Positions 6,316-31,658 of a DNA stretch of 36,260 bases are shown here, piece by piece (the first letter of the stretch is position 1; each line of letters opens with the position of its first letter). Source of the DNA: a virus. Under the pieces are notes generated by a model. The model was not told the origin of the DNA. It saw only the letters and a program-made list of their open reading frames with translations, and did not search any database. Made by a program: the position numbers and the translations under genes. The stretch lies in IMG/VR virus record IMGVR_UViG_3300020119_000045, positions 1 to 36,260 of that record; one strand, 5' to 3'.

Positions 6316-6320
6316 TCAGG

Positions 6321-6334: not shown

Positions 6335-6385
6335 CCCCGACGACTGGTCGAGAACGCATCTGGGGCCAAGGAGGCCCACACGACA

Positions 6386-13625: not shown

Positions 13626-13634
13626 GGCGCTACC

Positions 13635-13820: not shown

Positions 13821-15802
13821 TGGCGCAGGAACCCAAATACGGCAACCTGACCCTCGGTCTGGCCCTCGAACAAGGCGACCATTCGATGGAGCTACAGCGC
13901 CAGCTCCAGACGCGGATCATGGGCATCATGCCCGAGCACTCGCTCTTCCGAGACGAGGCGGAGCGCAACGACAAGCTGTTCTACGCGACCGGCTACAGCA
14001 CGTTCGGCGCCGACATCTGGCTGGACGACCCGAACCTCAACGTGGACGGGCGCTCGCACATCTCGCTGAACACGCCCGCGGTCTACGTGGAGGTCCCAGC
14101 CGCGCTGCAGGCGCTCGAACCCATCGAGAACATGGTGGCCATCGAGGACTCCGAGACCGCCCGCGACGACGCGAACGCCATGGAGCGCATCCGCGAGGCG
14201 TGGCGCGTGGAGGAGCTGTGGCAGTTGAAGCGCCACAAGGCCGCCACCGTCAAGGGGCTCTACGGCCGCACCGCGTCCTTCATCTACCCCGACATGGACG
14301 AGCAGCGGGTGTGCGCCGACGTGGTCATCAACCCGCGCAACCTCTACATGGGGTTCCAAGATGACAATTACGACGAGCTGGAGTGGGCCGCGCAGGTCAC
14401 GCTGGTCGATCCGATGACCGTGATGGAGCGCTACAGCGTCACCCTCGAAGTCAAGTCGCTGGAGGACGGCACCGTCGTGCCGTGGGTGGTCGCGATGGGC
14501 GACGGCGCCAGCGTGGACATCCCTCGGCCCGAGGTCAACTGGGGTCCGATGCGCGTGGAGGTCTGGGACTACTGGTATCGCAAGGTCGGGAAGCCCGGCA
14601 AGCGCGGCACCGAGGCCAAGATGGAGACGTGGAACGTCATCGTCGTGGGCAACGAGGTCGTCCGCAACGCCAAGTACGCCTACTACGACGGCGAAATCCC
14701 ATACGTTCCCCTGTTCAACACGTTCGTTCCGGGCGTGCCGACCGGCCGCAGCGACCTCCACGACATGGAGCAGCTCATCCGCGAGAAGATGACGCGCCTG
14801 ACGGCCGGGGCGCAGATGATCCAGAAGGCCACGGCGGGCGACTACTGGCAGCTCACGGGCGAGAACGCGCCCGCCCGCGGCACGGTCAACGCCAAGCCGA
14901 TGCTGAACCAGACGGTGAGCCCGGGCGCGGGCAACCGCTACGAGGCCATCGCCCCGTTCATCGCGGAATTCCAATTGGAGCAGTTCCTCGGCCGCCTCGA
15001 CCGCGAGATGGCGGTCATCTCGGGCCTCAACGACCTGCTGCTGGGGCTCGCCCCGAGCGCGGTCCTGAACAGCTCGAAGGCCATCAACGCGCTGGTCGCG
15101 AACTACGAGTCGCGGCTCTCGATGCGTCGCCTCATGTTCTACGAGTGGGATCGGAAGACGTGGGAGCTGACCTGCAAGGTCTGGGCCAACATGCGGAATG
15201 ACAATGGCCGGTTCATCAAGGGCATCGTGGCCCACGGCCTGCCGCGTCTCGACATCATCGACCCGTCCCTCAGCCCGCGGGATGAGATGGAGACGGCGAC
15301 GCGAGCCGCCAACCTCGTCAACGCCCGGCTCTGGTCACAGGCCCGAGGCATGGACGCGGTCGGCGTGGACGACCCCGAGCAGGAGCAGAACATCATCCGC
15401 CGCGAGAGCACGGACGCGACCCTGTGGCCCGACCGGGTGAACCTGATGGTCCAGCTCATGTCGGCCCTCAACGCCGCCGGGGCGCAGGCCCCGCAGGGCG
15501 TGCAGCAGCAGGTGGCCGGGCAGGAGCAGTCCGGCGCGGCCGCCCTCCAGTCCGCGCTGGGCGCTGGGACTCCGGCCGCTCTGCCGAACGGTGCTGGCGC
15601 GGCGGCGCTTGGCGGGCAGGGCGTGCAGCCGGACGTGACCGGCGGCCAGTCCTCGCCGTTCGCTCAGGGTCCGCAGGGCGCCTCGGCCCAGCCATTCGCC
15701 GCAGCGCAGAACGGGCCGCAGGCCACGCAGGTCCAGTCCATGATCCAAGGCGGACAGTTGAAGGGCCGCATCCTCAACAACGTGAAGTACGGGCGGAAGT
15801 AG
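13820..15802 (+). CDS. Portal protein
   Basis: At 660 residues and in the position after terminase, this is the dodecameric portal. The core (about 20-520) shows the mixed helix/strand pattern of phage portals, with a wing-type segment (VVINPRNLYMGFQDDNYDEL near 170-190), MTRLTAGAQMIQ, and the long stem helix region SGLNDLLLGLAPSAVLNSSKAINALVANYESR in two blocks (about 399-432). The C-terminal 110 residues are Gln/Gly/Ala-rich, low complexity, and could form a flexible barrel or crown extension. GGGAGG lies close upstream of the ATG. It bears motif copies at 14361, 14968 and 15198. Confidence 0.88.
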   Translation: MAQEPKYGNLTLGLALEQGDHSMELQRQLQTRIMGIMPEHSLFRDEAERNDKLFYATGYSTFGADIWLDDPNLNVDGRSHISLNTPAVYVEVPAALQALEPIENMVAIEDSETARDDANAMERIREAWRVEELWQLKRHKAATVKGLYGRTASFIYPDMDEQRVCADVVINPRNLYMGFQDDNYDELEWAAQVTLVDPMTVMERYSVTLEVKSLEDGTVVPWVVAMGDGASVDIPRPEVNWGPMRVEVWDYWYRKVGKPGKRGTEAKMETWNVIVVGNEVVRNAKYAYYDGEIPYVPLFNTFVPGVPTGRSDLHDMEQLIREKMTRLTAGAQMIQKATAGDYWQLTGENAPARGTVNAKPMLNQTVSPGAGNRYEAIAPFIAEFQLEQFLGRLDREMAVISGLNDLLLGLAPSAVLNSSKAINALVANYESRLSMRRLMFYEWDRKTWELTCKVWANMRNDNGRFIKGIVAHGLPRLDIIDPSLSPRDEMETATRAANLVNARLWSQARGMDAVGVDDPEQEQNIIRRESTDATLWPDRVNLMVQLMSALNAAGAQAPQGVQQQVAGQEQSGAAALQSALGAGTPAALPNGAGAAALGGQGVQPDVTGGQSSPFAQGPQGASAQPFAAAQNGPQATQVQSMIQGGQLKGRILNNVKYGRK

Positions 15803-15805
15803 CCG

Positions 15806-18226
15806 ATGGCACGCAGCCGACGCGGTAGCTTCGGGCTCCGTCCCCGCACCGCCCCCAGCCTGACCAACACCATCGTCGCCCTCTCGCGCGAGTACGTCGC
15901 GAAGCGCGATCAGCTCATCATGGACGCGTGGCGCAACGGCGGCACCTTCGAGGGCAAGCCGGTCACGGACGCCATGGTGCTTGCCTACTGGAAGGGCCGC
16001 GAGCAGGGGCTCGACCCCAGCGACCCGGTCACGGAGGGCATCAAGGACCAGATCATGCAGCTCCACTACGCCATCGAACAGTCGAAGGCCGACGTGCTCC
16101 ACGCGCAGGGCAAGCTGTCCGACATGGCGTACGCGCAGTTCTTCCTCCGCTGGGCGAAGAAGATACCCGCCAGCAGCGAGTTCTACCGGACCCTCCAGAA
16201 GGACGCCGCGCAGCTCATCGAGTCCGCCAAGGCCAAGGGTCGGGCGGGCGCCGAGGCCGCGAAGGTCAAGGCGTTCAACGAGTTCGTGCAGACGACGCAG
16301 GCACAGCACATTGCAATTGGGGACGCCATGACGGCGGCCCTGTCCTACCTGTCCAAGGCCACGGGCATGAGCTACACCGCGAACGGCGACGAGCTGCTGC
16401 AGCTCCTCACGCAGAACGTCAAGGCGAACCCGGGCGAGTACCGGCAACTGCTGGACGCCATCAAGGCGGGCGACCCGAGCTGGGATGGCCAGCTCACCGA
16501 GAGCTACTTCAGCCACCACATCAACGACGCCGCGCAGGGCTACTCCGCCATCGCGGACAAGGCCAAGGCGGACGGCTACGTCTCGGCGTACGCGAGCGCG
16601 ACGAAGGGCATGTCCTCCATGTCCGAGTGGGCGCAGAACATCCGCGTGTGGCCGGTCGCGCAGTCCTACTCGCAGGCCGAGACCGCGTGGCTGAAGGTCA
16701 TGCAGGACCCGAACTCGTCCGAGATGGACAAGTTGGCCGCCTCACGCTCCTACAGCGAGACGCTGTCCCGACTGGCCGGGACGCCGGGGATCGACCCCGC
16801 CTCGAAGACGATGCTGACGGCTGACTCGTTGCGCCTCCTCGGGGAGGATGGCGGCGATGCGCCGTCGTTCGGCACCTCGATGCTCGGACGCCCGGGCGTG
16901 GACCCGCAGACGACCATGCAGATCGCCGCGTTTGCCCAGTTGAAGGCCGAGCGGGACGCGAACCCGCTGGCCTACGCCTACGCGCCCGTGGACAAGAACG
17001 GGCAGTTCGACGTGACCGGGCAGGGCGCGCTGGGCATCGTCCCGCTGGGGCAGGTGCCGTCCGGCGCGCAGGCCGTGATGGTCCCGGGCATCGACGGTCA
17101 CGCCGTGATGGCCATGGTGCCCATGCACAACATCTACGCGGTGAACCCCAGCGATCCGAACGGGCCGCGTCAGCCTGCCGGGTTCGTCATCAACTACAAC
17201 GTCGGCGGCCGCCAGATCACCATGTGGGGCTACGTTGACGCCAACAAGCAGCCGCACTGGTCGCTGACCTCGCCGCTGGTGGACGGCGCCACGACGACGA
17301 CCGACAGCAAGGGCGACATCACCGTGACGCCGCCCGCCCGCGTGGACCCGACCGCCCTTGCGCAGGCCATGGACCCGACCGGGAAGCTCAACATCGCGGC
17401 CGAAATCCAGCAGGGCGTCACGTCCGGCGAGACCGTTGACCGGAGCACCACCGGGACCGTCAAGACCATCAAGTGGACCTTCGCCAACGGCGCGCTCTCC
17501 GCGACGCAGACGGTCGAGACCGTGGACCCGATCACCCATCAAATCACTGGCTCCACGACGCAGCCCTTCTCCGTTAGCGGCTTTGGCGCATCGAGCGCCT
17601 TCAGCCAGTCTCGTCTGGCCGCGGGCGACGTGCCGGGTTCGACCTTCACCTCGCCGCTTCAGGCGTCCGTCAACGCGGCCGGGTACGCCCAGAGCCGCGA
17701 TCAGGTCGCGGTCTACGCGTCCGACCCGCAGTTCCAGCAGCAGTTCCTCGTGCAGACCATGAGCACGCTCGGGACGAGCAACCCGTACGACCCGCGGATC
17801 GCCTCGGCATGGAAGGCCGCGACGACCTCGAACATCGAGCCCGACGTGAAGACGCTCGCTGCGCAGCGCGCTGACCTCACGTTCCCCGGTGGCCACCCCG
17901 GCGAGGGCCGCCTGCAGGTCCCGTCGCTCACCTTCGGCTCGCCGGAGCTGCGCATCCCCGAGGCGCCGAACTCGGCCAATACGCGCGATTACAATGTCAA
18001 CGGGCAGTTCTCCGGCGTCGCTCCGCAGCTTACCCCGGCGCAGCCCGCACCGACCGCCCCGGCTCCGAGCGCGACCCCGGCCCCGGCGGTCACGCCGACG
18101 CCGACCGCCATCACGCCGACCGCCACGCCCGTCACGACGGTCACGCCCACGCCGGTCGTGGCGCCCATCAGCGTCGCGCCCGCGCCCGTCCCGGCGTACT
18201 CGAAGACAGGGCCGATCAAGCTGTGA
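15806..18226 (+). CDS. Large virion protein, 806 aa, unknown family
   Basis: The 806-residue product follows the portal by three bases with GGAAG upstream. The first 300 residues are helical (VALSREYVAKRDQLIMDAW; EQSKADVLHAQGKLSDMAY), the middle is beta-rich (QAVMVPGIDGHAVMAMVPM; NVGGRQITMWGYVD), and residues about 735-800 form a Pro/Thr/Ala/Val repeat tail (PTPTAITPTATPVTTVTPTP). I recognise no family. Its place before the scaffold and its partner of 1849 residues suggest an internal or ejected virion protein or a portal-associated factor, rather than a tape measure. One perfect ATTGCAAT lies at 16310-16317 and an ATTACAAT at 17988-17995. Confidence 0.75.
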   Translation: MARSRRGSFGLRPRTAPSLTNTIVALSREYVAKRDQLIMDAWRNGGTFEGKPVTDAMVLAYWKGREQGLDPSDPVTEGIKDQIMQLHYAIEQSKADVLHAQGKLSDMAYAQFFLRWAKKIPASSEFYRTLQKDAAQLIESAKAKGRAGAEAAKVKAFNEFVQTTQAQHIAIGDAMTAALSYLSKATGMSYTANGDELLQLLTQNVKANPGEYRQLLDAIKAGDPSWDGQLTESYFSHHINDAAQGYSAIADKAKADGYVSAYASATKGMSSMSEWAQNIRVWPVAQSYSQAETAWLKVMQDPNSSEMDKLAASRSYSETLSRLAGTPGIDPASKTMLTADSLRLLGEDGGDAPSFGTSMLGRPGVDPQTTMQIAAFAQLKAERDANPLAYAYAPVDKNGQFDVTGQGALGIVPLGQVPSGAQAVMVPGIDGHAVMAMVPMHNIYAVNPSDPNGPRQPAGFVINYNVGGRQITMWGYVDANKQPHWSLTSPLVDGATTTTDSKGDITVTPPARVDPTALAQAMDPTGKLNIAAEIQQGVTSGETVDRSTTGTVKTIKWTFANGALSATQTVETVDPITHQITGSTTQPFSVSGFGASSAFSQSRLAAGDVPGSTFTSPLQASVNAAGYAQSRDQVAVYASDPQFQQQFLVQTMSTLGTSNPYDPRIASAWKAATTSNIEPDVKTLAAQRADLTFPGGHPGEGRLQVPSLTFGSPELRIPEAPNSANTRDYNVNGQFSGVAPQLTPAQPAPTAPAPSATPAPAVTPTPTAITPTATPVTTVTPTPVVAPISVAPAPVPAYSKTGPIKL

Positions 18227-21200
18227 TCGACTGGAGCAAGCTCACCTCGGGTGGCAGCACGCCAGCGGTCGGCCCTGACTCTGCCGCAGCCCCGGTGGCC
18301 CCGGCCGTGCCGGGCGGCATCCCGCAGGCTCCGCAGGTAGCGCCCGAGCAGCAGAAGTTCGCCACCGGCCAGTTCACGCCCGGCGAGGAGGGCATGACGC
18401 AGGAGCAGGTGGACAAGCTGAGCGCCTTCGACCGGATCGGGCGCGGCTGGGACGAGGTCGGCAACTTCCTCTTCGGGGACAAGTCGATCCTGCACGACAC
18501 CCCGGTGGCCTCGGCCGCGGGGCTGGTCGGCAAGGCCGTGGGCAGCACGGTGGACGCCACCGTCATCAAGCCCTTCCAAGGAGCGGGCATGTTGGCCAGC
18601 GGCATCCCGCTGGGCTGGCTGCCGGGCGGCGCCGACGACACATTCAAGCAGCTCGGGGACTGGGCCAAGGCCAACGACCCGAAGCTCTACGCGCAGTGGC
18701 AGGCCGTGGACGCGGCCGCCGCGGGCAACTGGGACGCGGGCAACCTCCACGCCCAGTTCAACACGGAGACATTGCAATATCTGGATGACCAGCAGAAGGA
18801 CAGCTTCCTCGGCGTCAATCCGGCCGCGCACTTCGGCCGCGCCGGGTCGGGCTCGCTGGGCGGTGCGCTGTCCAATGCCCTGTCGTGGCTGACGGGCGGC
18901 GCGAGCAACATCTCACAGCAGGCCCTCGGCGGCGCGGGACTCTTCAACCCGGAGGGCTCGACCGCGTCGTTCGAGCAGATGCTCGCGTACCACAAGAACC
19001 CGGGAGCCTACACGCCCGCCGCGAAGCCCACCGAGTCGGCGGAGTACGCCTTCAAGCAGATGGACGCGGGCAAGTTCACCGAGCAGCAGGCCCGGGACTA
19101 CATCGCCCAGTCCGAGCGGCCCATGTCGCGCGTGGAGGAGTCCGCCATGCGGCTCGACCGCGGCGGCGAGGTCTCCGACGTGGAGAAGAACGCCATCGAG
19201 GCGTGGCGCTCGGGCGCGTGGACGCTCGACCACGCCAACACCTACATCGAGACTCACGGGCAGGGCATCACGCGGAACCCGGCGGGCCAGATCGCGGGCA
19301 CCGTCCTGACCGACCCGCTGACCTACGCCACCATCGGCGCCGGGTCGATTGCCAAGACCGGGGAGGTCGGCGCGCAGATCGCGGAGGCGGCCGGGCTGGG
19401 CAAGACGGCCACCATGGCGGATCGGCTCGCGCTCGCGGGCCAGCAGGCGTCGGCGTACGAGAAGCTCGCCACCACCGTGCACGCCGTGCAGGCCGACCCG
19501 GTGATGGGTCCGGTCTTCCGGCTGGCGCGCGGCATGATCGACCCGCTGGGCACGTTCAAGCCCGGGTCGGTTGCGAGCGCCGTCACCAATCTGGAGGGAG
19601 CCACGGCCGTGAGCGCCTTCAGCCGATGGGTCAAGCCCACCAACTTCAAGGACATGCGCGGGCTCGCCCGCGAACTCGGCAAGACGCCCGAGGTGGACAG
19701 CGCGATCATGTCGTACTCGCTCGACAAGGCGCACGAGATGCAGGCGGTCTACGCCCAGCAACAGCTCCTCCGCGAGGGGCTGGGCGAGCAACTGATCCGC
19801 CCGGACGCTCCGAGCGTTGACAGCCTTGCTGGGCCGATGGCGCGCAACGCCGGAGTGGACGCCGAGACCGAACTCGTGGACCACATGCAGGCCGTAGGCA
19901 AGACGACGCTGACCTCGCAGGAAGAGCGTGACACGGCCGCGCGGCTGGCCGTTACCCTCGGGCAGGACGTGCCCTTCTGGGAGGCGAAGCTCGCGAAGAT
20001 GCCGTTCGACATGAAGGCCGCTTGGCACGCGGTCGCGTACAAGCTGGCCGAGAAGGACTCCGTGGAGGCGCTGGCCAAGATCGACCAGCTCGCGTACAAG
20101 GGCGACCTGCCCCTGAAGAACGCTGTCCTGATGAATACCGACTCGCTCGACAACGAGATTGCCACCGGCCTCGCGCAGAACATCAAGGACATTCTGGCGG
20201 CGCCCGGCACGGGCAACCGGATCGAGGCGGCGACGGCCGAGTGGAACGCCGCGGCCCAGCACTACCCGGCCATTGCCAGCATCGGTCTCGCGCCCGGCGG
20301 CCAGACGCAGTTGGAAGCGCTCGTCAAGGAGCTGGAGCGTCAATTGAAATCGGGCGGGATCACCAAGCGGTGGACTGAAGCGGAGCTGCAGGATGCCAGC
20401 GTCAAGCCTGTGTCCGACTTCCTCGCCCGGCACAGCTTCGAGGGCAAGCCACTGTGGAAGATGGGTTTCCGCCCGGACGAGGAGGTCGCGTGGGGCCTGA
20501 AGCGCGACCTCAACACCGGCAAGGTGATGGTGGACCGCACGCCTACCATCAGCCACGTCATCGACGCCGTCCCGGGCCGTCAGCCGTTCAGCGACACCAT
20601 CCGTGACTCGCTCGGGCGGATCATCGGCAAGAGCACCGCCGGTCGGCTAGCCGCCCCGGTGGACTCGCTCTCGGCCTTCATCGACACGATGCGCGACGGG
20701 ATCACGGGCCAGCGCCTCGTGCGCAACATCGAGCAGCGCTTCGAGCGCAGCACGTTCGAGGCGGGCATCCCGAAGCCCGTGTCGAAGGCCATCATGGAGC
20801 AGGCCAAGGAAATTGCCGGGCTGAACCGGACGACGCTGCGCGGGCTCGGAGTGGACGAGGGTGGCAATCTGTGGAATGCCGTGCATGACGCCATCCCGCG
20901 CGACCTCGTGCTGAAGGACGGATCGTCGCTCAACGTCCACATCGTCATGGACCACTTGCTGCAGGCGGCCGAGGGCGACCTGCGGATCATGGGCGCCACG
21001 TCGGTGCTGTCGCAGCGTATGCGTAACGCGATCCGCCACGGCATCGGCCCCATTCCGGGCGACCCGAGCAACTGGCTGGGCCGGACCACCGTGACCGGCT
21101 ACAACCGTATCCGGTACTCGCAGCCGATGTTCCTCATCCAGCGCATCACAGACGGGCCATACTACTCGATCCTGTACGGCGTCACGCCTGTGGGCAAGGG

Positions 21201-23772
21201 CGCGCTCACTGGCGGCGCGGCCGATCTGGAGAAGATCGTGGAGAACATCGGTCGCACGTCCTTCGGGCGCGACTTCAGCATGGACATGCCCGAGTTCGCG
21301 ACCCGCACCAACTTCCTGCAGGGCATCAAGTCGGCGTTTCAGGAGGCAGGCATCACGAGCAACAAGATGCAGGCCATCATCGACGCCCCTGACGCCATCA
21401 TCGCCCACAACATGACCAACATGCTCCACGCAAAGCTGGGCGACATCGTCCGCGGGTCGCTCGACAACCTCGCAACGCTGGCCAAGGACGCCGAGCCCGA
21501 GCTGCAGGCCGACATGCTGGCCGCCGGGGAGCAGTTCAAGAACACCTTTGCCGACTGGCGGCAGGTCTACTCCGACGCGGCCGGTCGGGTGCTCAATGAC
21601 AATGAGGTCGCATTGCAATATATCAAGGAGCAGCTCAACGCGTGGAACCGGGTCGTCACGCCGGAAGGGCTGCAGGACTTCGAGCGCATCCTCGCGGACG
21701 GCGAGCGCTCCATGCCCGCCAGCATCGGGGAGCTGGGCACCATCAAGCCCGACCTGCTGGCCCAGAAGCTCGGGTACGAGGACGCGGCTGCACTGCGGCG
21801 CGACGTAACCGGGCGCGTCGAGAAGATCAACGGCACCTTCCAAGTGGTGAACGGCGAGCACGACATCTCGCGGCTGGAAGAGGACTTGCGCGACAAGCTG
21901 ATGGCCCACCCGGACTACGTGAAGCGCGCCATCGCCTACTTCAGCGGGACGTGGGATGACTTCTGGCACCAGCTCGCGCGCCCGGTGGGCGAGGGCGGGC
22001 TGGACATCAGCGCGCACTACGCCAAGGAGGCGCAGAACCTCATCGCCGGGATCGCCAAGGATCGCGGCATGGACCCGTGGGAGTACCTGTCTGGCGTCAT
22101 GGCCATGAACCTCGGGCCGAACGACCTCAACACCGCCATGGGGCGGCTAGCCGCCTTCCTGAAGCAGGGCGACATGGCCCCGGGCGACTGGGCGCAGTTC
22201 TTCCGCGCGCACCTCGACCCCTCGGCGCAGGAGACGCTGATGGATGCGGCTGCTGGGCGCACGGGCCTCGCCGGGAGCATCGAGACCAAGCTGGCCGCCG
22301 GGGACGTGGCCGGGTCGCAGGCCGACAACGTGGCGCAGGGCGCCTCGAAGGGCGGCACGCTGGAGTCCGGCGGCGCCACCATCCAGACCGGCAGCGACAT
22401 CCTGTCGCAGGCCGAAGAGGACGCCAACGCGCTCCGCGACAAGATCGCCCAGAAGTGGCAGGACACGGAGCAGCGCAACAGCCTGCGCATGGAGAAGGAC
22501 CTGCACGCGCTGGAGCAGCAGGGCTTCGACATCCACGACGCCGAGGATGCCCTCGGGGATTACAATGGCATCGAGCGCAGCGAGTTCACGGCCGAGGAGT
22601 ACGGCTCGCGCGAGGACGCCGCCGACGCCTACCGTCAGGAGCGCGAGGACAAGCGGCAGGAAATCCTCGACGCCATTGACGCGGCCGAGCACAACCACAC
22701 CGACGCCACGCAGGCCGCCGCTGACGCCGCGGATGCGGCCGCCGCGCAGGCGCCGAGCCGCCGGATCGACCTGTCGCAGATGCAGTTCGAGCAGCCTAAG
22801 ACCACCGTGCCCGGTCGCACCGCCGAGGCGGACGCGTTCTTCTCGGGCGCTGACGACTCCGGGCTCGTGAAGCTGCTGAAGGACCGCGTCGCCTCGGGCA
22901 AGCCGCACGAGAACGCCGACGTGGAGGCTGCCCTGCAGGAGGTCTCGCGCCTGTCGAAGAAGGTGCTGGCGGGCTCCGCGGACGCGGGCAACACCCGGCA
23001 CAACCTGCGGCAGCTCGTGGAGGACGTGGCGGCCACCGTGCCGACGACCTCCGCCGCGCCGTTCAACCGCACACACGCCCTGATCGTGTCGCTGCTGCGC
23101 AGCAAGATCATGGACGCCCAGAAGGACATCTTCCGGCTGGCCGAGATGCAGACCAAGCGGAACGTGATCGAGCGCAGCCTGAACCACCCGCTCTTCGGGC
23201 TCTACCCGGCGAGCTACATGTGGGGCAAGGTCCTGCCGGAGACCGTCAAGTTCTTCGCCAAGAACCCGTACGCCGCGACCTATACCATCGCGGACGTGGA
23301 GCGGGCAATTGCAATTCAGCGGGAGTACGACCGGAACACCGAGGACCTCATCAACAAGGTGGACAGGTCGTCGGCCGCCTTCCTGCTCGACTACCTCACG
23401 CCCAGCCTGCCGTGGTCCGATCACTCGGCGCGCATGTCGCCCATGGTTCGCGACCTGTTCAAGGGCCAGCCGCAGAACATCTGGTTGGACGAGCTGGCCA
23501 CCGTGAGCCCGGAGCGCTGGGTCAAGCAGTTCGCCCAGACCGGCGTGGAGGCGCTCAACTTCGTGAAGTCGCAGCAGCACCCGCAGGAGGGCACGCCCAT
23601 CCAGCTCGGCGGGCTGCAGTCCATCGAGAACGCCAACCCGCCGACCGGCGGCACTGGCCCCGTACCGCAGATCACCGGACCCGTCTCGGCGTCTGGGCTG
23701 GCCCCGATCCTCTCTGAGGACCTGAGCCGGTTGCAAGACATCCTGCTCCACGGACAGCCCGCAGGGCAGTAG
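18223..23772 (+). CDS. Giant virion protein, 1849 aa, probable internal/ejection protein
   Basis: This is the largest gene in the window. GTG 18223 overlaps the end of the 806-aa gene. The protein is soluble-looking and mostly helical, with early amphipathic segments (GLVGKAVGSTVDATVIKPFQ near 100-120), long Ala/Glu/Asp-rich helices in the middle and a highly charged coiled-coil region near 1400-1510. The C-terminal part has a tidy globular block (LNHPLFGLYPASYMWGKVLP, residues about 1650-1670) seen by me as the best-conserved-looking segment. Its size and place between portal and scaffold recall the very large ejection proteins of short-tailed phages. No enzyme motif is evident. Motif copies lie at 18771, 20343, 21596, 21612, 22559 and 23308. 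Confidence 0.75.
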   Translation: MIDWSKLTSGGSTPAVGPDSAAAPVAPAVPGGIPQAPQVAPEQQKFATGQFTPGEEGMTQEQVDKLSAFDRIGRGWDEVGNFLFGDKSILHDTPVASAAGLVGKAVGSTVDATVIKPFQGAGMLASGIPLGWLPGGADDTFKQLGDWAKANDPKLYAQWQAVDAAAAGNWDAGNLHAQFNTETLQYLDDQQKDSFLGVNPAAHFGRAGSGSLGGALSNALSWLTGGASNISQQALGGAGLFNPEGSTASFEQMLAYHKNPGAYTPAAKPTESAEYAFKQMDAGKFTEQQARDYIAQSERPMSRVEESAMRLDRGGEVSDVEKNAIEAWRSGAWTLDHANTYIETHGQGITRNPAGQIAGTVLTDPLTYATIGAGSIAKTGEVGAQIAEAAGLGKTATMADRLALAGQQASAYEKLATTVHAVQADPVMGPVFRLARGMIDPLGTFKPGSVASAVTNLEGATAVSAFSRWVKPTNFKDMRGLARELGKTPEVDSAIMSYSLDKAHEMQAVYAQQQLLREGLGEQLIRPDAPSVDSLAGPMARNAGVDAETELVDHMQAVGKTTLTSQEERDTAARLAVTLGQDVPFWEAKLAKMPFDMKAAWHAVAYKLAEKDSVEALAKIDQLAYKGDLPLKNAVLMNTDSLDNEIATGLAQNIKDILAAPGTGNRIEAATAEWNAAAQHYPAIASIGLAPGGQTQLEALVKELERQLKSGGITKRWTEAELQDASVKPVSDFLARHSFEGKPLWKMGFRPDEEVAWGLKRDLNTGKVMVDRTPTISHVIDAVPGRQPFSDTIRDSLGRIIGKSTAGRLAAPVDSLSAFIDTMRDGITGQRLVRNIEQRFERSTFEAGIPKPVSKAIMEQAKEIAGLNRTTLRGLGVDEGGNLWNAVHDAIPRDLVLKDGSSLNVHIVMDHLLQAAEGDLRIMGATSVLSQRMRNAIRHGIGPIPGDPSNWLGRTTVTGYNRIRYSQPMFLIQRITDGPYYSILYGVTPVGKGALTGGAADLEKIVENIGRTSFGRDFSMDMPEFATRTNFLQGIKSAFQEAGITSNKMQAIIDAPDAIIAHNMTNMLHAKLGDIVRGSLDNLATLAKDAEPELQADMLAAGEQFKNTFADWRQVYSDAAGRVLNDNEVALQYIKEQLNAWNRVVTPEGLQDFERILADGERSMPASIGELGTIKPDLLAQKLGYEDAAALRRDVTGRVEKINGTFQVVNGEHDISRLEEDLRDKLMAHPDYVKRAIAYFSGTWDDFWHQLARPVGEGGLDISAHYAKEAQNLIAGIAKDRGMDPWEYLSGVMAMNLGPNDLNTAMGRLAAFLKQGDMAPGDWAQFFRAHLDPSAQETLMDAAAGRTGLAGSIETKLAAGDVAGSQADNVAQGASKGGTLESGGATIQTGSDILSQAEEDANALRDKIAQKWQDTEQRNSLRMEKDLHALEQQGFDIHDAEDALGDYNGIERSEFTAEEYGSREDAADAYRQEREDKRQEILDAIDAAEHNHTDATQAAADAADAAAAQAPSRRIDLSQMQFEQPKTTVPGRTAEADAFFSGADDSGLVKLLKDRVASGKPHENADVEAALQEVSRLSKKVLAGSADAGNTRHNLRQLVEDVAATVPTTSAAPFNRTHALIVSLLRSKIMDAQKDIFRLAEMQTKRNVIERSLNHPLFGLYPASYMWGKVLPETVKFFAKNPYAATYTIADVERAIAIQREYDRNTEDLINKVDRSSAAFLLDYLTPSLPWSDHSARMSPMVRDLFKGQPQNIWLDELATVSPERWVKQFAQTGVEALNFVKSQQHPQEGTPIQLGGLQSIENANPPTGGTGPVPQITGPVSASGLAPILSEDLSRLQDILLHGQPAGQ

Positions 23773-24423: not shown

Positions 24424-25656
24424 ATGGGTACCGTCATTTCGACCGCGACGACGAACTTCAATCAGCAAGTCGTCACGCTGGTCAACAAGCGCCTCGAAGA
24501 GCTGCTGCGAGCCCCGCTCCCGCACCTCATTCCCGGCAATTTCCGTGAGGCCGGTTTCGTCAAGGGGACGAACTCGACCATGCGGTTCATCAACATCCCT
24601 GACATGTCGGTTGTCGCCGGTACGGTCTCGGCGGGTACTCCCCCGTGGCTGACTGAAGGCACGCCCCCGACCTCTGAGGACCTGAACCTCGGCTACGAGG
24701 AGTTCACCGCTTCGCAGGCCGGTCGAGTCATCAAGCTCACCGACGTGGCGATGATGGAGAGCCCCTTCGACCTCCTCGCGGAGGCGGCCGACCGTGTTGC
24801 GCGCAATGCCCTTGCGACCGCTGACAAGCGCGTCGCTGAGGTCCTGAGCGCGGGCACGCAGGTCATGTACGCGGGTGGCGCCTCTTCGCGAGCCACCATC
24901 CCGTCGAACTCCGCCCTCACGGGCGCGCTGGTCAAGCTGGCCGTCGCGCGACTGAAGGCGGCTGCTGTCCCCACGTTCCCTGACGGGACGTACCGCGCCA
25001 TCGTGCACCCGGGTTCGACCTACGACCTCGAAAGCGACACGGCGGTCGGCGGATGGATTGACGCACAGCGGTACGCTGGAGCCGAAGCCCTGATGACGGG
25101 CGAGGTCGGCCGGTACGCGGGCGTTCGGTTCATCGAGTCGGCTGCGGCCGTGAGCTTCGCGGCCGTCAACGGCCCGGCGCTCGCGAACGCGGGCAACGCG
25201 GCCATCGCGGCCACGGACCTCATCACCACGTCCTCGGCGCACGGTCTCGTTGCGGGCAACCGCATCAAGATTACCGCCCTGACGGGTGGTGCTGGCCTGA
25301 CGCAGGGCAACACGTACTTCGTGGTCGCCCCGGTCACGTCCACCACGTTCAAGGTGTCGGCCACGCTCAACGGTGCGGCCATCGACATCACGTCGGACAG
25401 CTCGGCGTTCACTGCGAACGTCGTGAACGACATCCTCAACACCGTCATCTTCGGCCCGGAGGCGTACGCCTTCGGTGACTGGGGCAGCATCCAGACGTAC
25501 TTCACCCAGCCGGGTGGCACGACTGACCCGCTGCACCAGCTCGCGCAGGTCGGTTGGAAGGGCATGTTCGGAGCGGTCATCATTGGTGAGGGCGCGAATG
25601 CGTCCAACGCCAGCGCGGCCCGCTACCGGCGCATCGAGCACACCTCTCAGCTCTAG
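24424..25656 (+). CDS. Major capsid protein (N4-gp56-like) with an inserted FCCH-like domain
   Basis: The 410-residue protein begins MGTVISTATTNFNQQVVTLV and shows the capsid pattern of the N4-gp56 group within the HK97 fold: FTASQAGRVIKLTDVAMMES, then the long helix region with RNALATADKRVAEVLSAGTQ (about 128-147), TYRAIVHPGSTYDL, GGWIDAQRYAGAEALMTGEV and RYAGVRFIES (about 230-240). Residues about 258-335 are an insertion: HGLVAGNRIKITALTGGAGL through FKVSATLNGAAIDITSDSS. The same domain occurs in the Dit-like and baseplate proteins here. In the capsid it should protrude as a surface decoration. The fold then closes with VIFGPEAYAFGDW and a C-terminal strand. Scaffold lies upstream and a terminator follows. 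Confidence 0.88.
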   Translation: MGTVISTATTNFNQQVVTLVNKRLEELLRAPLPHLIPGNFREAGFVKGTNSTMRFINIPDMSVVAGTVSAGTPPWLTEGTPPTSEDLNLGYEEFTASQAGRVIKLTDVAMMESPFDLLAEAADRVARNALATADKRVAEVLSAGTQVMYAGGASSRATIPSNSALTGALVKLAVARLKAAAVPTFPDGTYRAIVHPGSTYDLESDTAVGGWIDAQRYAGAEALMTGEVGRYAGVRFIESAAAVSFAAVNGPALANAGNAAIAATDLITTSSAHGLVAGNRIKITALTGGAGLTQGNTYFVVAPVTSTTFKVSATLNGAAIDITSDSSAFTANVVNDILNTVIFGPEAYAFGDWGSIQTYFTQPGGTTDPLHQLAQVGWKGMFGAVIIGEGANASNASAARYRRIEHTSQL

Positions 25657-25691
25657 TAGCTGGGGAGTGACGCTCCTCCTCTCGTAACCCT

Positions 25692-25722
25692 GAAGCCCCT
25701 CGGCATTGCGCCGGGGGGCTTC
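25692..25722 (+). terminator. Hairpin terminator after the capsid gene
   Basis: GAAGCCCCTCGGC (25692-25704) pairs with GCCGGGGGGCTTC (25710-25722), 13 bp with one G-U, around ATTGC. A short T-containing tail (TTGCAAT) follows. It would lower expression of the tail genes relative to capsid. Confidence 0.7.
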
Positions 25723-25746
25723 TTGCAATACCATGAATGACAATCC

Positions 25747-26907
25747 ATGGACCTCACGAGAGACATCATCTACCGGAACTTCAAGCTGAACGACTCCACC
25801 GTGGCGGCGCAAGTTGTCGGGGATGGCCTCGGGCAGGGGATGTCCGGCTGCGTTCTGGACACCTTCGACCCGGATGACACTGACGTGGTGCAGTTCAGCG
25901 AGAAGCGGGCCGAGGCTGACGGCATGGACGTGGGCAGCCCGTTCTTCGGCGCTCGCCGCATCCGCCTGTCGGGCACGGTGTACGGCCAGACGCGCGCCCT
26001 GTGCTACGACACGATGCGCCAGCTCCGGGCGGTGCTCGATCCTGTCCTCGCCTCGCGCGAGAGCCCGGCTGACAAGGGCTACCTGCCGCTCTACTTCACC
26101 GAGCCGACCAACGACATCGCGGACTTCGCCACCGGCACCATCGACCAGCGGGCGCTGGTCATGCCCAAGGTCTTCCGCGCCCCGTCCGACCGTGACATGG
26201 TGGGCGGCGTTGACGGCGACGCGCTGGCGTGGCCATGGTCGGCCGTGCTCGTGATGAAGGACCCGAAGTTTGAGGGCATCGTGCCGCAGGACGTGGCCTT
26301 CTCGCAGACGACCCTCGTGACTGGCGCGACCGCCACCGCTTCCACGGACCTCATCAACAAGGCGTCGCACGGCCTCTCGGCCGGTGCCCGCATCTACATC
26401 ACGGCCCTGACCGGCGGCGCCGGGCTGGCGCTCAACACGAGCTACTACGTCCTCGCCTCGGGCCTGACCTCCAGCGCCTTCAAGGTGAGCCTGACGCCGG
26501 GCGGCTCCGCCATCGACATCACGTCGGACGCGACCGTCCTGACGTACGTGGTCTACGGCTCGGTGGCCGGGAACTTCCTCAACCGCGGCACGTACAACTC
26601 GCCACTCAACATGCTCTTCTCGGTCGGCCCGCTGGCGGGCACGATCACCGTCGTGGCCGGGCAGTCCAACTTCACGATCACGGTGCCCGCGTCGTCCAAC
26701 AACCGGATCATCCGGGTCAAGCGGGAGAAGCTCATCACCGCCGAGGAGCTGGGCGTGGAGACCCTGCGCCGTAGCTGGCTGACCTTCACCGGCTCGAACA
26801 CTTGGCCGTTGGTCTCGGCGGGCGTGAGCGCCTACACCGTCACCATCAACGGGCTGACCCTCATCGACGCGGCCAGCCACATGTGGTTCTGGGAGCAGTA
26901 CGCATGA
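25747..26907 (+). CDS. Distal tail (Dit-like) protein with an inserted FCCH-like domain
   Basis: The 386-residue protein matches Dit/siphovirus tail component proteins by its N-terminal barrel (ARRIRLSGTVYGQTRALCYD near 75-94, then MRQLRAVLDPVL), which forms the hub ring between tail and baseplate, and a C-terminal galectin-like beta domain (TWPLV... TINGLTLIDAA). Between them, residues about 190-272 are the same domain found in the capsid (ASHGLSAGARIYITALTGG through GGSAIDITSDA). The ATG lies near an ATGACAAT copy (25737-25744). A weak promoter (TTGCGC, 17 bases, TACCAT) may overlap the terminator. The Dit call is from domain order; a podoviral nozzle protein is possible. Confidence 0.72.
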   Translation: MDLTRDIIYRNFKLNDSTVAAQVVGDGLGQGMSGCVLDTFDPDDTDVVQFSEKRAEADGMDVGSPFFGARRIRLSGTVYGQTRALCYDTMRQLRAVLDPVLASRESPADKGYLPLYFTEPTNDIADFATGTIDQRALVMPKVFRAPSDRDMVGGVDGDALAWPWSAVLVMKDPKFEGIVPQDVAFSQTTLVTGATATASTDLINKASHGLSAGARIYITALTGGAGLALNTSYYVLASGLTSSAFKVSLTPGGSAIDITSDATVLTYVVYGSVAGNFLNRGTYNSPLNMLFSVGPLAGTITVVAGQSNFTITVPASSNNRIIRVKREKLITAEELGVETLRRSWLTFTGSNTWPLVSAGVSAYTVTINGLTLIDAASHMWFWEQYA

Positions 26908-27071
26908 ACTTTCGGCGCCCGCACCCGGACCCAAAGCGGGACTCGTACAAGGTCAAGGACACCTGCTATAAGGCGGGCCGCGCGGCCGTCATGGAGCTGA
27001 AGCGGCGCGTGCCGCTTGACACTCGGGTGGCGTGGGGCGATGATGCGGTTGACACGCATCCGCAACACTGA
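26904..27071 (+). CDS. Hypothetical protein, 55 aa
   Basis: ATG 26904 overlaps the Dit stop (ATGA) and gives a 55-residue basic protein (MNFRRPHPDPKRDSYKVKDT, then MELKRRVPLDTRVAW). The single Cys makes zinc binding unlikely. It is probably real because of the coupling. Within it, TTGACA (27016-27021) and GATGAT (27039-27044) with a 17-base spacer could start the next genes. No family recognised. Confidence 0.5.
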   Translation: MNFRRPHPDPKRDSYKVKDTCYKAGRAAVMELKRRVPLDTRVAWGDDAVDTHPQH

Positions 27072-27084
27072 AGGGGAACCTGCA

Positions 27085-27273
27085 ATGCCGCGAAACATCG
27101 AGACCGCTCCCGAAGCTGACTGCGATTGCAACGCCTGCCGGGCGATGCGTCGGGCCTTCGACCGCAAGCTGGGCTACCGCTCGGACGGCAGCGTCGCGCT
27201 TGACGCCGACCTCGAAGCGAACTACCTCGACTATCTCTCGGGGGCACTTGTGCCCAGCGGCGAGAGGGATTAG
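27085..27273 (+). CDS. Hypothetical protein, 62 aa
   Basis: ATG 27085 has AAGGGG eight bases upstream. The 62-residue product has a C-x-C-x2-C cluster near the N-terminus (DCDCNACRAM) and an acidic helical remainder (LDADLEANYLDYLSGALVP). One metal ion could be held by the cluster with a further ligand. Its TAG stop forms the start of the -10 box for the next gene. Function unknown. Confidence 0.6.
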   Translation: MPRNIETAPEADCDCNACRAMRRAFDRKLGYRSDGSVALDADLEANYLDYLSGALVPSGERD

Positions 27274-27276
27274 AAT
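27248..27276 (+). promoter_or_regulatory. Candidate leaderless promoter on a TAG stop codon
   Basis: TTGTGC (27248-27253) and TAGAAT (27271-27276, five of six bases of the consensus) are 17 bases apart. ATG 27283 begins six bases beyond the -10 box, where transcription should start. Confidence 0.45.
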
Positions 27277-27282
27277 TCGGAC

Positions 27283-27471
27283 ATGTCGAGCCCCTCTGCC
27301 AAGAAGAACCGGGTCGCCCTTCTGACGAGCGATCCCTGCCCACGCGCCTGCAACAGCGGGCCGAACACGGCCACCCACCTCGTCTCCGATCACGTCGAAG
27401 AGAAGGTTCGGCAGTGCAACAAGTGCTCGTGCGTCATGCAGGACGTGAACGACCCGCGGGTGAGCGCGTAA
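27283..27471 (+). CDS. Small cysteine-rich protein, 62 aa, probably leaderless
   Basis: The 62-residue protein starts MSSPSAKKNRVALLTSDPC and has five cysteines, PCPRACNS near 19-23 and CNKCSCV near 45-50, in a spacing that could bind one zinc. No good ribosome binding site precedes ATG 27283; a -10 box six bases upstream suggests a leaderless mRNA. The next gene follows after one base. The family is not recognised. Confidence 0.6.
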   Translation: MSSPSAKKNRVALLTSDPCPRACNSGPNTATHLVSDHVEEKVRQCNKCSCVMQDVNDPRVSA

Positions 27472-27472
27472 C

Positions 27473-27907
27473 GTGGCCATCTTTCAGGACGAGAACGGCA
27501 ACCCGGTCCAGTCGGTTCGCATCGTCCCTGCCGGGGCGCTGTCTGCGTCAGCGGACATCGAGCTGGCGGTTGCGGCACAGGTCTCCGCTGCGGCCAACAA
27601 TCAGACCCTCGCTGCCGCCGCAGGACGGCTCAACTACCTCGCCGGGTTCACCGTTGACGGGCTTGGCGCCACTGGCGCATCCGTCATCAACGTGACCATC
27701 ACCGGCCTGCTCGGTGGCACCATCACCTACCCCGTGCCGATCCCGGCCGGTGCCGGTGTGCAGCTTGCCTCGCCGCTGCGGGTCGAGTTCGCGCGGCCCA
27801 TCCCGGCGATTGCGCCTGCCACGGCCATCGTTGTGAACGTGCCGTCCTACGGGGCGGGTAACACGCAGGCCAACGCGTCCGCACACGGGTTCAGCCGAGC
27901 GGTCTGA
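27473..27907 (+). CDS. Beta-rich virion-associated protein, 144 aa
   Basis: GTG 27473 opens 144 codons. After a short N-terminal part (MAIFQDENGNPVQ) the chain is a beta sandwich-like sequence (LNYLAGFTVDGLGATGASV, VNVTITGLLGGTITYPVPI, PLRVEFARPIPAIAP, TAIVVNVPSYGAGNTQANA) rich in Gly, Ala and Val, a composition typical of head-decoration or fibre-head proteins of phages. It sits between Dit and the connector. I believe it is on the virion surface; the precise role is unknown. Confidence 0.65.
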   Translation: MAIFQDENGNPVQSVRIVPAGALSASADIELAVAAQVSAAANNQTLAAAAGRLNYLAGFTVDGLGATGASVINVTITGLLGGTITYPVPIPAGAGVQLASPLRVEFARPIPAIAPATAIVVNVPSYGAGNTQANASAHGFSRAV

Positions 27908-27916
27908 GGGTAGGCC

Positions 27917-28591
27917 GTGACGACCTACCTCACCCTCCAGCAGGAAGTCTCCCGAGACCTAGCCGATCCGTCGAACCAGACGTTCGACGTGAACGCGGTC
28001 AAGGACTTCATCCAGCAGGGCCTCGCGGAGGTCCAGCGGTTCGCGCCGGACATGTTCCAAGAGGACCTTGACCCGACGCCGAACACGCTGGTCTACCCGC
28101 TGCGCTCCGCCTACTTCCCGGGCAACCCCCAGCCCGAGGTTCGCCTCGTCCGGGTGGAGGTCTGGTCGGGCAGCCCGTCGCGGTTCAAGCTGAAGATCAA
28201 GTCCAAGTCCGGCCAGCCGACGCGCGACAGCGTCGCGGGCTGGGAGGTCTGGGACGGCCAGCTCGAACTGCCCTCGCCCATCGTGGACAACTACATCGAC
28301 GCGACCAACGACACCATCCGGGTCTGGGGATACAGCCCGTACGCGCCCATCAGCGCGGACGCCGATGTCGTGCCCGTCAGCGCCGAATTGGAATTGGCCG
28401 TCCGCCACTTCTGCCGGGTCGAGGCCATGCGGAAGCTCATCGGCTCGCGCGTCCTCTTCAAGCAGTGGCAGGCGAAGTCGAACAACACCGACGTGACGTT
28501 GGGCCAGCTCAATAGCGACCTGCAGGTTGCCGAAGAGACTTGGCGCCGGATGAAGCGCGAGCTGAAGGTCACAGAGCAGAGCCCGGACTGA
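27917..28591 (+). CDS. Head-tail connector/adaptor-like protein, 224 aa
   Basis: The 224-residue protein starts at GTG 27917 with the helical pattern typical of phage adaptor proteins: MTTYLTLQQEVSRDLADPS, FDVNAVKDFIQQGLAEVQRF (about residues 23-42). A beta-rich middle (VRLVRVEVWSGSPSRFKLKI; IRVWGYSPYAP) and a C-terminal helical bundle (LELAVRHFCRVEAMRKLIGS; SDLQVAEETWRRMKREL) follow. Such proteins form the ring that attaches to the portal. It would be far from the portal gene but next to tail genes, as in short-tailed phages. An ATTGGAAT copy lies at 28387-28394. Confidence 0.6.
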   Translation: MTTYLTLQQEVSRDLADPSNQTFDVNAVKDFIQQGLAEVQRFAPDMFQEDLDPTPNTLVYPLRSAYFPGNPQPEVRLVRVEVWSGSPSRFKLKIKSKSGQPTRDSVAGWEVWDGQLELPSPIVDNYIDATNDTIRVWGYSPYAPISADADVVPVSAELELAVRHFCRVEAMRKLIGSRVLFKQWQAKSNNTDVTLGQLNSDLQVAEETWRRMKRELKVTEQSPD

Positions 28592-28595
28592 GCCC

Positions 28596-31500
28596 ATGAG
28601 CCAGTCCAGAACGCTCTCGGTCTCCATCGACACCGTCCGTCGCATCAAGACGGACGGCACCGAGCACACCGGGTCCGGCAAGTCCAAGCACTACTACGTC
28701 GGGCGCAACGGCAGCTACGACTACTCGTCCTTCATCAAGTTCGCGCTCGACTGGACGAACGTGGGGTCCATCGTCAGTGCGACGCTGAACCTCTACACGG
28801 ACGAGTACGACACCTTCGGCTCGGCGGGCGAGCCCGGGATCATGGCGGCCCCGAAGACCACCGACATCCCGACCATCGCCACCATCCGCCGGTTGACCGC
28901 GGCCTTCACCGAGGGCTCCACGGCGGACGGCCAGTTCGCCTCGGCTGACTACGTCGCGCCTACGTACACGAGCACGGGCGCGGTCTCGGGCGCCCTCATG
29001 GCGAAGGGCGCCGACCTGCTGAAGTCCATCGACATCACGGCCATCGTCCGCGCGTGGGCGCCGTCCACCGTGGCGGGCGGCGGGCTCGCCACCAACCACG
29101 GCATCGGCCTGTACGGGTCCACCGACGCAACGAAGAACTGGTCGGGCTGGGCTCGCGAGCACGCGGGCGGTGGCGGGGCGGCCGAGCGGGCCACGATCAC
29201 GCTGGTCTACGAGTTCGGGCCGACCGTGCCGAACACGCCCACCAACCTCACGCCCGCGGGCAACGTCTCCACGCTGACCTCGTTCCAAGGCGACTTCAGC
29301 GATGTCCGCACGACCGACAAATTGCAATCGGTCTCCATTGAAATCTACGACGCGGGCCACTCGGCCACGGCCACGGCCTCCACCGACAAGATCACGCAGA
29401 GCGCAGCCCACGGCCTCGTGGTCGGCAACTCGGTCTACTTCACCGCGGTCGGCACGAGCGGGCTGTTGGCCATGCAGCGGTACTACGTCCAAGCCGTCGT
29501 CAACTCCACCACCTTCGCGGTCAGCGCGACCAGTGGCGGGGCGGCCGTGGACATCACCGCCGACAGCGCCGTGACGTGGTCGCTGCTGGTGGGCTCGCTG
29601 GCGCACACGGCCTCGCAGACGGAGCAGTCGGGCGCCCACTTCATCGTCCCGAAGCCGTTGACGCTGGCCATCTTCGCCACGCGCACGTACCGCTGGCGCG
29701 CCCGGTACACCGACAACGAGGGCCAGACCTCGGCGTGGACGAGCCTGACCTCCTTCGTCCTGACCGACACCGCCCCGAACGACCCGGTGCTCAGCCCGGT
29801 CAACGCATCGAGCTACGCCAGCCTGAACCTCGTCAAGTTCACGGGCGGCACCTTCAGCGACGCCGACTCGGGCGACGTGCTGGGCTCGCATCAGGTCCAG
29901 CTCAGCCCGTACCCGAGCGGTGACGCGCGCTGGACGGAGGCGGACGGCATCCTGTGGGACACCGGGCAGGTGTACGAGGCGGTCGGCGCTACGAGCTGGG
30001 TGGAATACTACGGCGGCCGCGCCCTGACGGCGGGCACGTACTACTGGCGCGCTCGGCAGTGGGACCAGAAGGGCGGCGTCTCGAACTGGGTCTACGCCCA
30101 GATCATCCTCACCGCGGACTTCAGCCCGGACCCGGCGAACTACTCCAACGTGCAGGTCAACACGCACGCCCCGTGGCGCATTATCATTCGCGACCTGTTC
30201 CAGTCCAACGGCACCACGCCTACGGTCGGCCGCGCCCCGGGCAACATCGTCGCGGTCATGGAGGAGGCCAAGAACGTCGGGGCCAGCGTGGTCTACAACA
30301 GCCCCGGCGAGCTGCACTTCACCCTGCTGAAGGATGACCCGCAGATCGCGGTGATCGAGCCCAAGCAGGTGCACTACGCGCTGGAGTTCTACTCCGGTGA
30401 CGGCTGGCAGGAGAAGTACGCGGGCGTCATCTGGGACATCGACGCCACCGAGGTCGATGTGGTCTTCAAGGGCCTCGACTACCTCGCCCTGTACGACACC
30501 AACGTGGACGAGCGGTATGACCCGCTGAACCCCGACAAGAGCTACGCCTCGGGCGGCTCGAAGTACAGCAACGTCACGATCCGCAACGTCGTGCTCGACC
30601 AGCTCAACTACGCCAAGGGCCGGACGGACTCGTGGGTCGGCCACATTTCAATCGGGACCGTTGATGCCATGGACGAGCTGGTGACGGTGTACTCCACGAT
30701 GGCACCGACCCTGCAGTTCGTCTCGGGCCTGCTCGACAGCCACCGGCAGGGCACCGGCAAGCGCACGCGCATGAAGGTCAGCAAGACGACGGGCGGCACG
30801 TACCAGCTCACCATCACCGACAACCCGGGCACGCTCCGCAGCGACCTCGCCATGTACTACGGCGAGCTGGTGCAGGGCTACCGGATCATCGCCTTCGGAG
30901 ATGGCTGGGGCAACGTCCAGCACGTCATCGGCCGGAACCGGGACGGCCTGAAGGTGGTCTACAACACCATCAGCGGACAGGCGTTCCAGCCCTCCACCTC
31001 CACCTACGGCCGCATCGCCAACGTGGTCGTCTTCGACGGCGTCAATGACCAGAACGACCTGAACCGGCGCGGCCTGCAGGCAGCCATCCAGTCTGCGAAG
31101 CTGGGGAAGAACATTGCAATTGGCATCCGCACCGAGTTCCTGAAGCCGCTGCAGGGCTGGGACATCACGGACACCTTCCCGCTCACCATCAAGGACGGGG
31201 CCATCGACACGACGCAGTTCGGCTCGGGCATTTGGGCGGCCTACGCGGCCGCGTGGGAGGCCACCGACATCGGGGAGCAGAGCCTCGTCATCACCTTCCT
31301 GCCGCGCGAGGACTCGTCTGCGCCGAACGCCAACCTGCTGCAGTCGAGCCCCATCTCGCCGCAGGCGGAGTGGCAGCTCGGCTGGGTTCCGCCGGACCCG
31401 CTCGTCACGTCATCCAAGTATTACCTCGACCAGTCGTCGGGCATCGTCTATGCTCGGCAGAGTGACGGTACCTACGTGCGCACCGATGGCGACCCGCGCA

Positions 31501-31658
31501 ACAACAACGGGCTGGTCAACTCGGGCTTCGAGATGAACCCCATCGCGACCGTCCTCACCAAGGTCTGGACGGCGGCGGCCGACTGGGCCACCGCCACGAG
31601 CACGGTCAACCTCGCGACTGGCGGCACCGAGCTGACCATGACGACGAGCACCTACTGA
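28596..31658 (+). CDS. Modular baseplate/tail protein with Gp37-like domain, 1020 aa
   Basis: Domains in order: a DNRLRE/carbohydrate-binding-like beta domain (about 1-205; DYSSFIKFALDWTNVGSIVS then ATLNLYTDEYD), a short Fn3-like strand set, an FCCH-like domain (about 255-335; AAHGLVVGNSVYFTAVG, GGAAVDITADS), an Fn3-like domain (about 393-505; with AGTYYWRARQWDQKGG), and a long C-terminal part like the siphovirus ReqiPepy6 Gp37 family (about 525-900; GELHFTLLKDDPQIAVI, YAGVIWDIDATEVDVVFKGL). The last part is a hub that binds Dit; the N-terminal modules probably contact the host surface. It is unusual to find adhesin modules in front of the hub. Motif copies lie at 29321, 29337, 30645 and 31113. 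Confidence 0.78.
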   Translation: MSQSRTLSVSIDTVRRIKTDGTEHTGSGKSKHYYVGRNGSYDYSSFIKFALDWTNVGSIVSATLNLYTDEYDTFGSAGEPGIMAAPKTTDIPTIATIRRLTAAFTEGSTADGQFASADYVAPTYTSTGAVSGALMAKGADLLKSIDITAIVRAWAPSTVAGGGLATNHGIGLYGSTDATKNWSGWAREHAGGGGAAERATITLVYEFGPTVPNTPTNLTPAGNVSTLTSFQGDFSDVRTTDKLQSVSIEIYDAGHSATATASTDKITQSAAHGLVVGNSVYFTAVGTSGLLAMQRYYVQAVVNSTTFAVSATSGGAAVDITADSAVTWSLLVGSLAHTASQTEQSGAHFIVPKPLTLAIFATRTYRWRARYTDNEGQTSAWTSLTSFVLTDTAPNDPVLSPVNASSYASLNLVKFTGGTFSDADSGDVLGSHQVQLSPYPSGDARWTEADGILWDTGQVYEAVGATSWVEYYGGRALTAGTYYWRARQWDQKGGVSNWVYAQIILTADFSPDPANYSNVQVNTHAPWRIIIRDLFQSNGTTPTVGRAPGNIVAVMEEAKNVGASVVYNSPGELHFTLLKDDPQIAVIEPKQVHYALEFYSGDGWQEKYAGVIWDIDATEVDVVFKGLDYLALYDTNVDERYDPLNPDKSYASGGSKYSNVTIRNVVLDQLNYAKGRTDSWVGHISIGTVDAMDELVTVYSTMAPTLQFVSGLLDSHRQGTGKRTRMKVSKTTGGTYQLTITDNPGTLRSDLAMYYGELVQGYRIIAFGDGWGNVQHVIGRNRDGLKVVYNTISGQAFQPSTSTYGRIANVVVFDGVNDQNDLNRRGLQAAIQSAKLGKNIAIGIRTEFLKPLQGWDITDTFPLTIKDGAIDTTQFGSGIWAAYAAAWEATDIGEQSLVITFLPREDSSAPNANLLQSSPISPQAEWQLGWVPPDPLVTSSKYYLDQSSGIVYARQSDGTYVRTDGDPRNNNGLVNSGFEMNPIATVLTKVWTAAADWATATSTVNLATGGTELTMTTSTY

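Follow-up and report, generated by a model that had tools for sequence, protein, structure and literature searches.

The question raised by this locus is how one small domain came to lie within several unrelated proteins of a single virion and what it may do there. The virus record analyzed, 36,260 bases long and referred to here as the window, has its late genes in the order terminase, putative portal, putative scaffold, capsid, and tail genes. The terminase gene (11976-13622) matches phrog_2, while the genes at 13820 and 23824, the former without a family match, are those that we take to be the portal and scaffold genes, respectively. Between these two lie genes for two long proteins of 806 residues (15806-18226) and 1849 residues (18223-23772), neither with a PHROG or NCBIfam match and the longer one common to relatives. 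The genes that follow, all on the plus strand where stated, code for the capsid protein (24424-25656, plus strand, 410 residues), a Dit-like protein (25747-26907, plus strand, 386 residues), a small protein (27473), an SU10-adaptor-like head-tail adaptor (27917-28591, plus strand; PF24175, 28.5 bits with a cut-off of 27), and a large tail or hub protein (28596-31658, plus strand, 1020 residues), with further tail proteins downstream. No tape-measure gene was recognized in the window despite the Dit-like protein, and no tRNA was found in it. HNH endonuclease-like and ATPase-like genes lie at 3091-5876 on the minus strand, opposite to the late genes.

According to the initial annotation, one FCCH-like domain recurs in the major capsid protein, in the Dit-like protein, and in a third one, the large tail protein that it named Gp37-like. 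The capsid protein belongs to the N4-gp56 family, as its score of 117.4 bits with TIGR04387 is above the curated cut-off of 60 and it matches phrog_1357 at 2e-36. The Dit-like identity is supported by fold, namely a belt and a galectin domain, in a model with a mean pLDDT of 58.0 that matched with VIA the Dit proteins of p2 (Z 8.8) and SPP1 (Z 8.3), the galectin matches covering residues 271-382. The name Gp37-like could not be upheld for the window protein because PF14594 did not match it at E ≤ 1, although this model does match another carrier of the domain, L030; the only Pfam signal in the large tail protein was Ig_Rha78A_N, just below its cut-off.

The presence of one domain in these three proteins was confirmed by tblastn, by a profile, and by protein and DNA alignment. 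When the Dit copy was used in tblastn against its own record it found itself (26332-26550, 100%), the capsid copy (25201-25413, 60%, E 1.7e-18), and the large-tail copy (29370-29573, 52%, E 9.5e-13), and no fourth copy in the whole record. The copies, all on the plus strand, were placed at 25198-25428 (copy 1, capsid), 26326-26556 (copy 2, between the Dit belt and galectin), and 29364-29588 (copy 3, large tail protein), with 104.9, 107.4, and 83.2 bits from the A5 profile. The A6 profile, built from six copies that all come from unrelated viruses, gave 55.9, 69.7, and 60.2 bits, respectively (E 7e-17 to 3e-21). Since the best score in a shuffle control was 5.9 bits (20 shuffles, all 466 six-frame stretches), chance is excluded. 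Global protein identities among the three copies are 59, 55, and 50%, and DNA identities within the domain are 69.8, 58.2, and 65.1% compared with about 36-49% in the flanks. The residues conserved across the domain are HGL, G, YYV, F, GG, and DIT, with HGL missing from several capsid copies, and the spacing of 47-49 residues that the initial annotation gave between the HGL His and the DIT Asp was found as 48 in the capsid protein, 49 in Dit, and 47 in the large tail protein.

Whether the domain is rightly called FCCH-like depends on the evidence used. The capsid model has a mean pLDDT of 41.8, and it is usable in the insert only because the blocks of the insert (residues 251-340) have values of 56-84 and other blocks of 23-52. 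With Foldseek the FCCH domains of Uba1/Uba6 came first for the capsid insert (best E 9.5e-4), followed by phage endosialidases and tailspikes. With VIA the insert matched the FCCH domain of Uba6 (7sol; Z 9.5, 4.4 Å over 94), the FCCH domain in 5knl (Z 9.1, 2.3 Å over 78), phi92 endosialidase (Z 8.8), and residues 424-508 of EndoNF (Z 7.2), all within residues 241-344 of the capsid model, where Z values within 1 of each other count as tied and values near 7-8 may represent common arrangements. No Ig-like entries were among the 50 matches listed for the capsid model, a list that does not exclude an Ig fold. The structural comparison also returned, for residues 249-336 of the capsid model, residues 15-97 of 9jlf_E from the FCWL1 head-to-tail interface (Z 8.6, 1.9 Å over 76), and the T1 tail tube chain 9l0f_G matched the capsid insert as well (Z 8.5); by this likeness the barrel could also be a core tail part. 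As to the expectation that the same fold would be predicted at all three places, of the two inserts modelled that of the capsid protein has an FCCH-like predicted fold and that of Dit has low confidence (blocks 43-64).

In sequence, PF16190 (E1_FCCH, cut-off 29.5 bits), the model of the domain that the capsid insert resembles most in fold, had no match in the window at E ≤ 1. It gave weak matches in 5/49 copies (best 0.016), and phage members above the cut-off do exist, in 4/46 related viral records and in 0/14 of another set. In a 426-residue frame starting at 2258 of L173, the PF16190 match (2444-2623) overlaps a partial match to the domain profile (about 2432-2590). The endosialidase barrel model, PF12195, matched in the window only copy 3, with 17.4 bits and below its cut-off of 35, and weakly 9/49 copies (best 0.0023). 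PDB sequence searches with the domain returned nothing significant, and the HGL..GD..V.F stretch aligned weakly (E 0.26) with ubiquitin E1. The term FCCH-like holds by predicted fold, in the capsid copy, and not by Pfam membership.

That the domain was inserted into its host proteins was borne out by empty sites in relatives, which were sampled as the best 80 of 90. The capsid comparison covered 60 distinct proteins of at least 300 residues, that of the window included, and 12 of 72 distinct frames that were shorter than this (2 with the insert and 10 without) were left out. The insert is present in 17 of the 60 (381-428 residues) and absent from 43 (307-361 residues). When it was removed and a tree made from the capsid core, one change sufficed to explain its distribution (support 100/99), and it is kept in frame throughout its clade of 17 rows. 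The nearest empty capsid proteins are those of L059, L061, L060, and L020. After the capsid gene of L060, at 4591-6542 where others carry tail genes, there are long frames that by eye look asparagine synthase-like and glycosyltransferase-like. Among relatives the insert is less conserved than its host in both proteins compared, 66.8% identity vs 84.2% for the capsid protein and 62.5% vs 74.5% for Dit.

The position of the capsid insert bears on its exposure. The capsid alignment stops at profile position 251, which corresponds to N4 residue 306 (9E99), and the insert starts just after it. According to the structural report, loops 300-328 and 184-203 of the N4 head jointly protrude from its outer face (PMC11768535). 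Because the insert starts just past residue 306 and within the first of these loops, surface display is suggested, and the insert would sit on an outward-protruding loop as in N4.

The other sites gave a similar picture. The window Dit consists, by fold, of a belt and galectin core plus the domain that is missing from the Dit of L061. The A4 alignment revealed a second Dit site inside the galectin domain (26689-26694, plus strand) that is empty in the window and filled in L005, L010, L012, and L014, and a site in the adaptor (about 28106-28135, plus strand) is likewise empty in the window and filled in L058 and L059. L061/L062 has the genes for the capsid protein, the adaptor, Dit, and the large tail protein in order, all four without the domain, and its capsid, Dit, and large tail proteins match those of the window on both sides of the missing insert; a profile search found no copy in the full 46,926-base record. 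Thus the domain entered these loops as insertions, and there are natural empty sites for each. L059 carries the domain in its adaptor and in one further protein of 244 residues (4565-5296) and unnamed kind while the capsid protein is empty, which means that a genome can hold the domain without having it in the capsid. In a profile search of 19 records, 10 had matches (7, 6, 5, 5, and 3 copies and five times 2 copies) and 9 had none, the seven copies being in the 48.8-kb relative L058 (L126, record G003). A search for bacterial and archaeal relatives of the Dit alignment gave 493 pattern matches of which 0 were confirmed, and therefore no host was found.

The initial annotation further proposed that the domain spread by copying within the genome. 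In a tree of 49 copies the 14 capsid copies form one clade (100/100). In a tree of 67 copies, whose bootstrap had not settled, the capsid copy of L058 stands apart and one outside copy falls inside the capsid group, and a single capsid clade is not rejected (p 0.41). Copies from different genomes thus fall together mostly according to the protein that holds them, which marks the insertions as old and speaks against strong ongoing homogenization. Recent copying is ruled out by this grouping and by the DNA identity of 58-70%. Cross-site identity is 44.4% within the same genome (58 pairs) vs 42.9% between different genomes (699 pairs; permutation p 0.011), a weak signal that shared descent of the sites can also yield. 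A candidate for within-genome copying is L058, in which three copies (capsid, adaptor, and second Gp37-like) cluster weakly (93/70). Any copying was thus old, and its source may plausibly have been the same genome. The alternative for the origin, although not for the role, of the domain is that this lineage made several independent acquisitions from other phages instead of copying it internally. The bootstrap trees need two to four changes for the lineage copies and, measured by path, copy 3 has its nearest row outside the lineage, in L038, as this explanation would have it; however, the AU test leaves room for a single clade of the 44 lineage copies apart from the 23 outside copies (p 0.378), and the weak cluster in L058 also argues against it. 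We regard independent acquisition as a serious possibility that falls somewhat short of probable.

Beyond this lineage the domain occurs widely, as a single pattern of eight residues led to 361 relatives among viral contigs. Host proteins were surveyed in 76 of 79 distinct frames obtained with one pattern, and the survey is biased by that pattern; L160 (too long), L163 (short), and L209 (a near-duplicate of L208) were omitted. By Pfam, the hosts were Phage_connect_1 connectors (14), head fibre Gp80 (13), and tail completion gp17 (6), together with SU10-type capsid proteins (2), one SU10 adaptor, Baseplate_J, and others. Ten proteins gathered earlier had included SU10_MCP (L036 and L038), a phrog_283 capsid protein (L031), Baseplate_J (L032), and Sipho_Gp37 (L030), so that capsid proteins of three family models, the window included, carry the domain. 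In Microbacterium phages it is in tail or hypothetical proteins, and the cultured laboratory phage Franklin22 has it in gp18, at residues about 466-537 of the frame. A virion protein (12922-18129) of Podoviridae sp. ctQRb9 from spring water (L044) has six tandem matches with E from 1.4e-11 to 0.012, two of them strong.

We propose that this FCCH-like beta-barrel, some 75 residues long, is a mobile module that enters virion proteins in frame. In this lineage it was inserted on different occasions into loops of four or more unrelated proteins, namely, the capsid protein, Dit, and the large tail protein, as well as the adaptor of sister phages. Its copies would be displayed on the exterior of the virion and may have an auxiliary role in which they weakly bind glycans of the host cell surface. 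The head, the neck, and the tail tip would then have one kind of sticky patch in common, which would help to keep the particle on the cell until it engages its true receptor. That the domain is a mobile FCCH-like insert we hold to be nearly certain. The glycan-binding role, which is argued by analogy, is tentative and in our estimate has slightly less than an even chance, and the statement as a whole, with mobility, outward display, and glycan binding together, is about evenly balanced. A polysaccharide ligand, as the initial annotation had suggested, is plausible by the same analogies, while no support was found for mucus.

Surface adhesion is proposed because of three analogies, the N4-loop site in the capsid, a Dit site like that of OE33PA, and the ligand of the K1F barrel. 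The barrel of K1F endosialidase binds polysialic acid at a site to which S460, S468, and G504 belong (PMC12632334), and the evolved Dit of OE33PA has a carbohydrate-binding module (CBM) between belt and galectin (PMC8540738). Likewise, two CBMs of 936-group phages, one from the tail and one from the neck, are described as binding host cells when fused to GFP (PMC6669499), and evolved Dits of skunaviruses are reported to give full infectivity on hosts with exopolysaccharide (PMC10688798). Adhesion is also favored by the faster divergence of the inserts than of their host proteins in capsid and Dit and by the fact that outside this lineage, too, the domain is carried by virion proteins (connectors, head fibres, tail completion proteins, SU10-type capsids, and baseplates). 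Against it, no sugar-binding family model reaches its cut-off on the window copies, the conserved residues resemble fold signatures in that the HGL..GD..V.F stretch aligns weakly with ubiquitin E1 as well, several capsid copies have lost HGL, the FCCH domain is a better fold match than endosialidase, surface display is deduced from an alignment that ends at the insert, and the faster divergence also fits relaxed constraint. The FCCH domain of ubiquitin E1, a eukaryotic enzyme, is not known to bind glycans.

The E1 FCCH fold serves as an architectural domain, and its match to the insert with Foldseek and VIA, together with conserved residues that look like fold signatures, would suit a barrel that stabilizes capsid, neck, and tail tip as a spacer or clamp without any ligand. 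The similar barrel in the T1-like tail tube and head-tail interface chains (9l0f_G and 9jlf_E) is in keeping with such a role, as is the judgment, in the N4 report, that the Ig-like decorations of N4 strengthen the capsid (PMC11768535). However, relatives lack the domain in the same genes and its number varies from 0 to 7 per record, which is odd for a needed clamp, and we consider a purely structural role rather unlikely. Patchy presence at many sites, divergence faster than that of the hosts, and tolerance even in connectors and tail completion proteins could instead mean that chance recombination placed the domain in tolerant loops where it was kept as nearly harmless, selfish or neutral DNA. 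This appears very unlikely to us, because the capsid insert, once gained, was retained in frame through the clade of 17 rows. A stronger form of the adhesion proposal, which we consider quite unlikely, is a virion-wide adhesive coat in which one glycan-binding barrel on hundreds of capsid subunits, the neck, the Dit ring, and the large tail protein would diverge separately at each site and so widen the range of sugars bound. If this were true, the FCCH-like barrel, a subfamily that so far has no Pfam model of its own, would be a general phage adhesin module alongside Ig-like domains and CBMs.

Some phage proteins bear the name of the E1 FCCH domain in public databases, and no paper dealing with FCCH domains in phages was found in open-access PMC. 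What is already known is that small beta domains are re-used across virion proteins and that the E1_FCCH Pfam model reaches some phage proteins. Domain shuffling is known in general (PMC10684548), and Ig-like domains are likewise small beta domains re-used across capsid, tail, and decoration proteins (PMC11768535), whereas here the best fold matches are of the FCCH type and the copies lie inside loops of structural proteins. The endosialidase barrel of phi92 and K1F EndoNF resembles the window domain in fold and weakly in sequence and likewise lies on the phage surface, where it offers a glycan site (PMC12632334), but it belongs to a tailspike enzyme whereas the window domain is inserted in capsid and Dit proteins. 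The closest parallel in position is the extra beta domain of the OE33PA Dit, which lies between belt and galectin as in the window (PMC8540738). Phages of lactic acid bacteria have CBMs in the neck, tail tube, and Dit within one phage group, but these are of different kinds and are described for places other than the capsid (PMC6669499), whereas one homologous domain is used everywhere in the present lineage, including the capsid. What is new, as far as our literature search goes, is the presence of one homologous domain in the capsid, neck, Dit, and large tail proteins of a single lineage with natural empty sites for each. Because one domain has moved into unrelated folds of one virion, the gain, the order, and the effect of such decoration are open to study. 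The spread across virion parts suggests a re-usable surface patch, perhaps for cell-surface sugars, and if the domain does bind glycans this would account for a recurrent feature of capsid, connector, head-fibre, and baseplate proteins that now goes unnamed in annotation.
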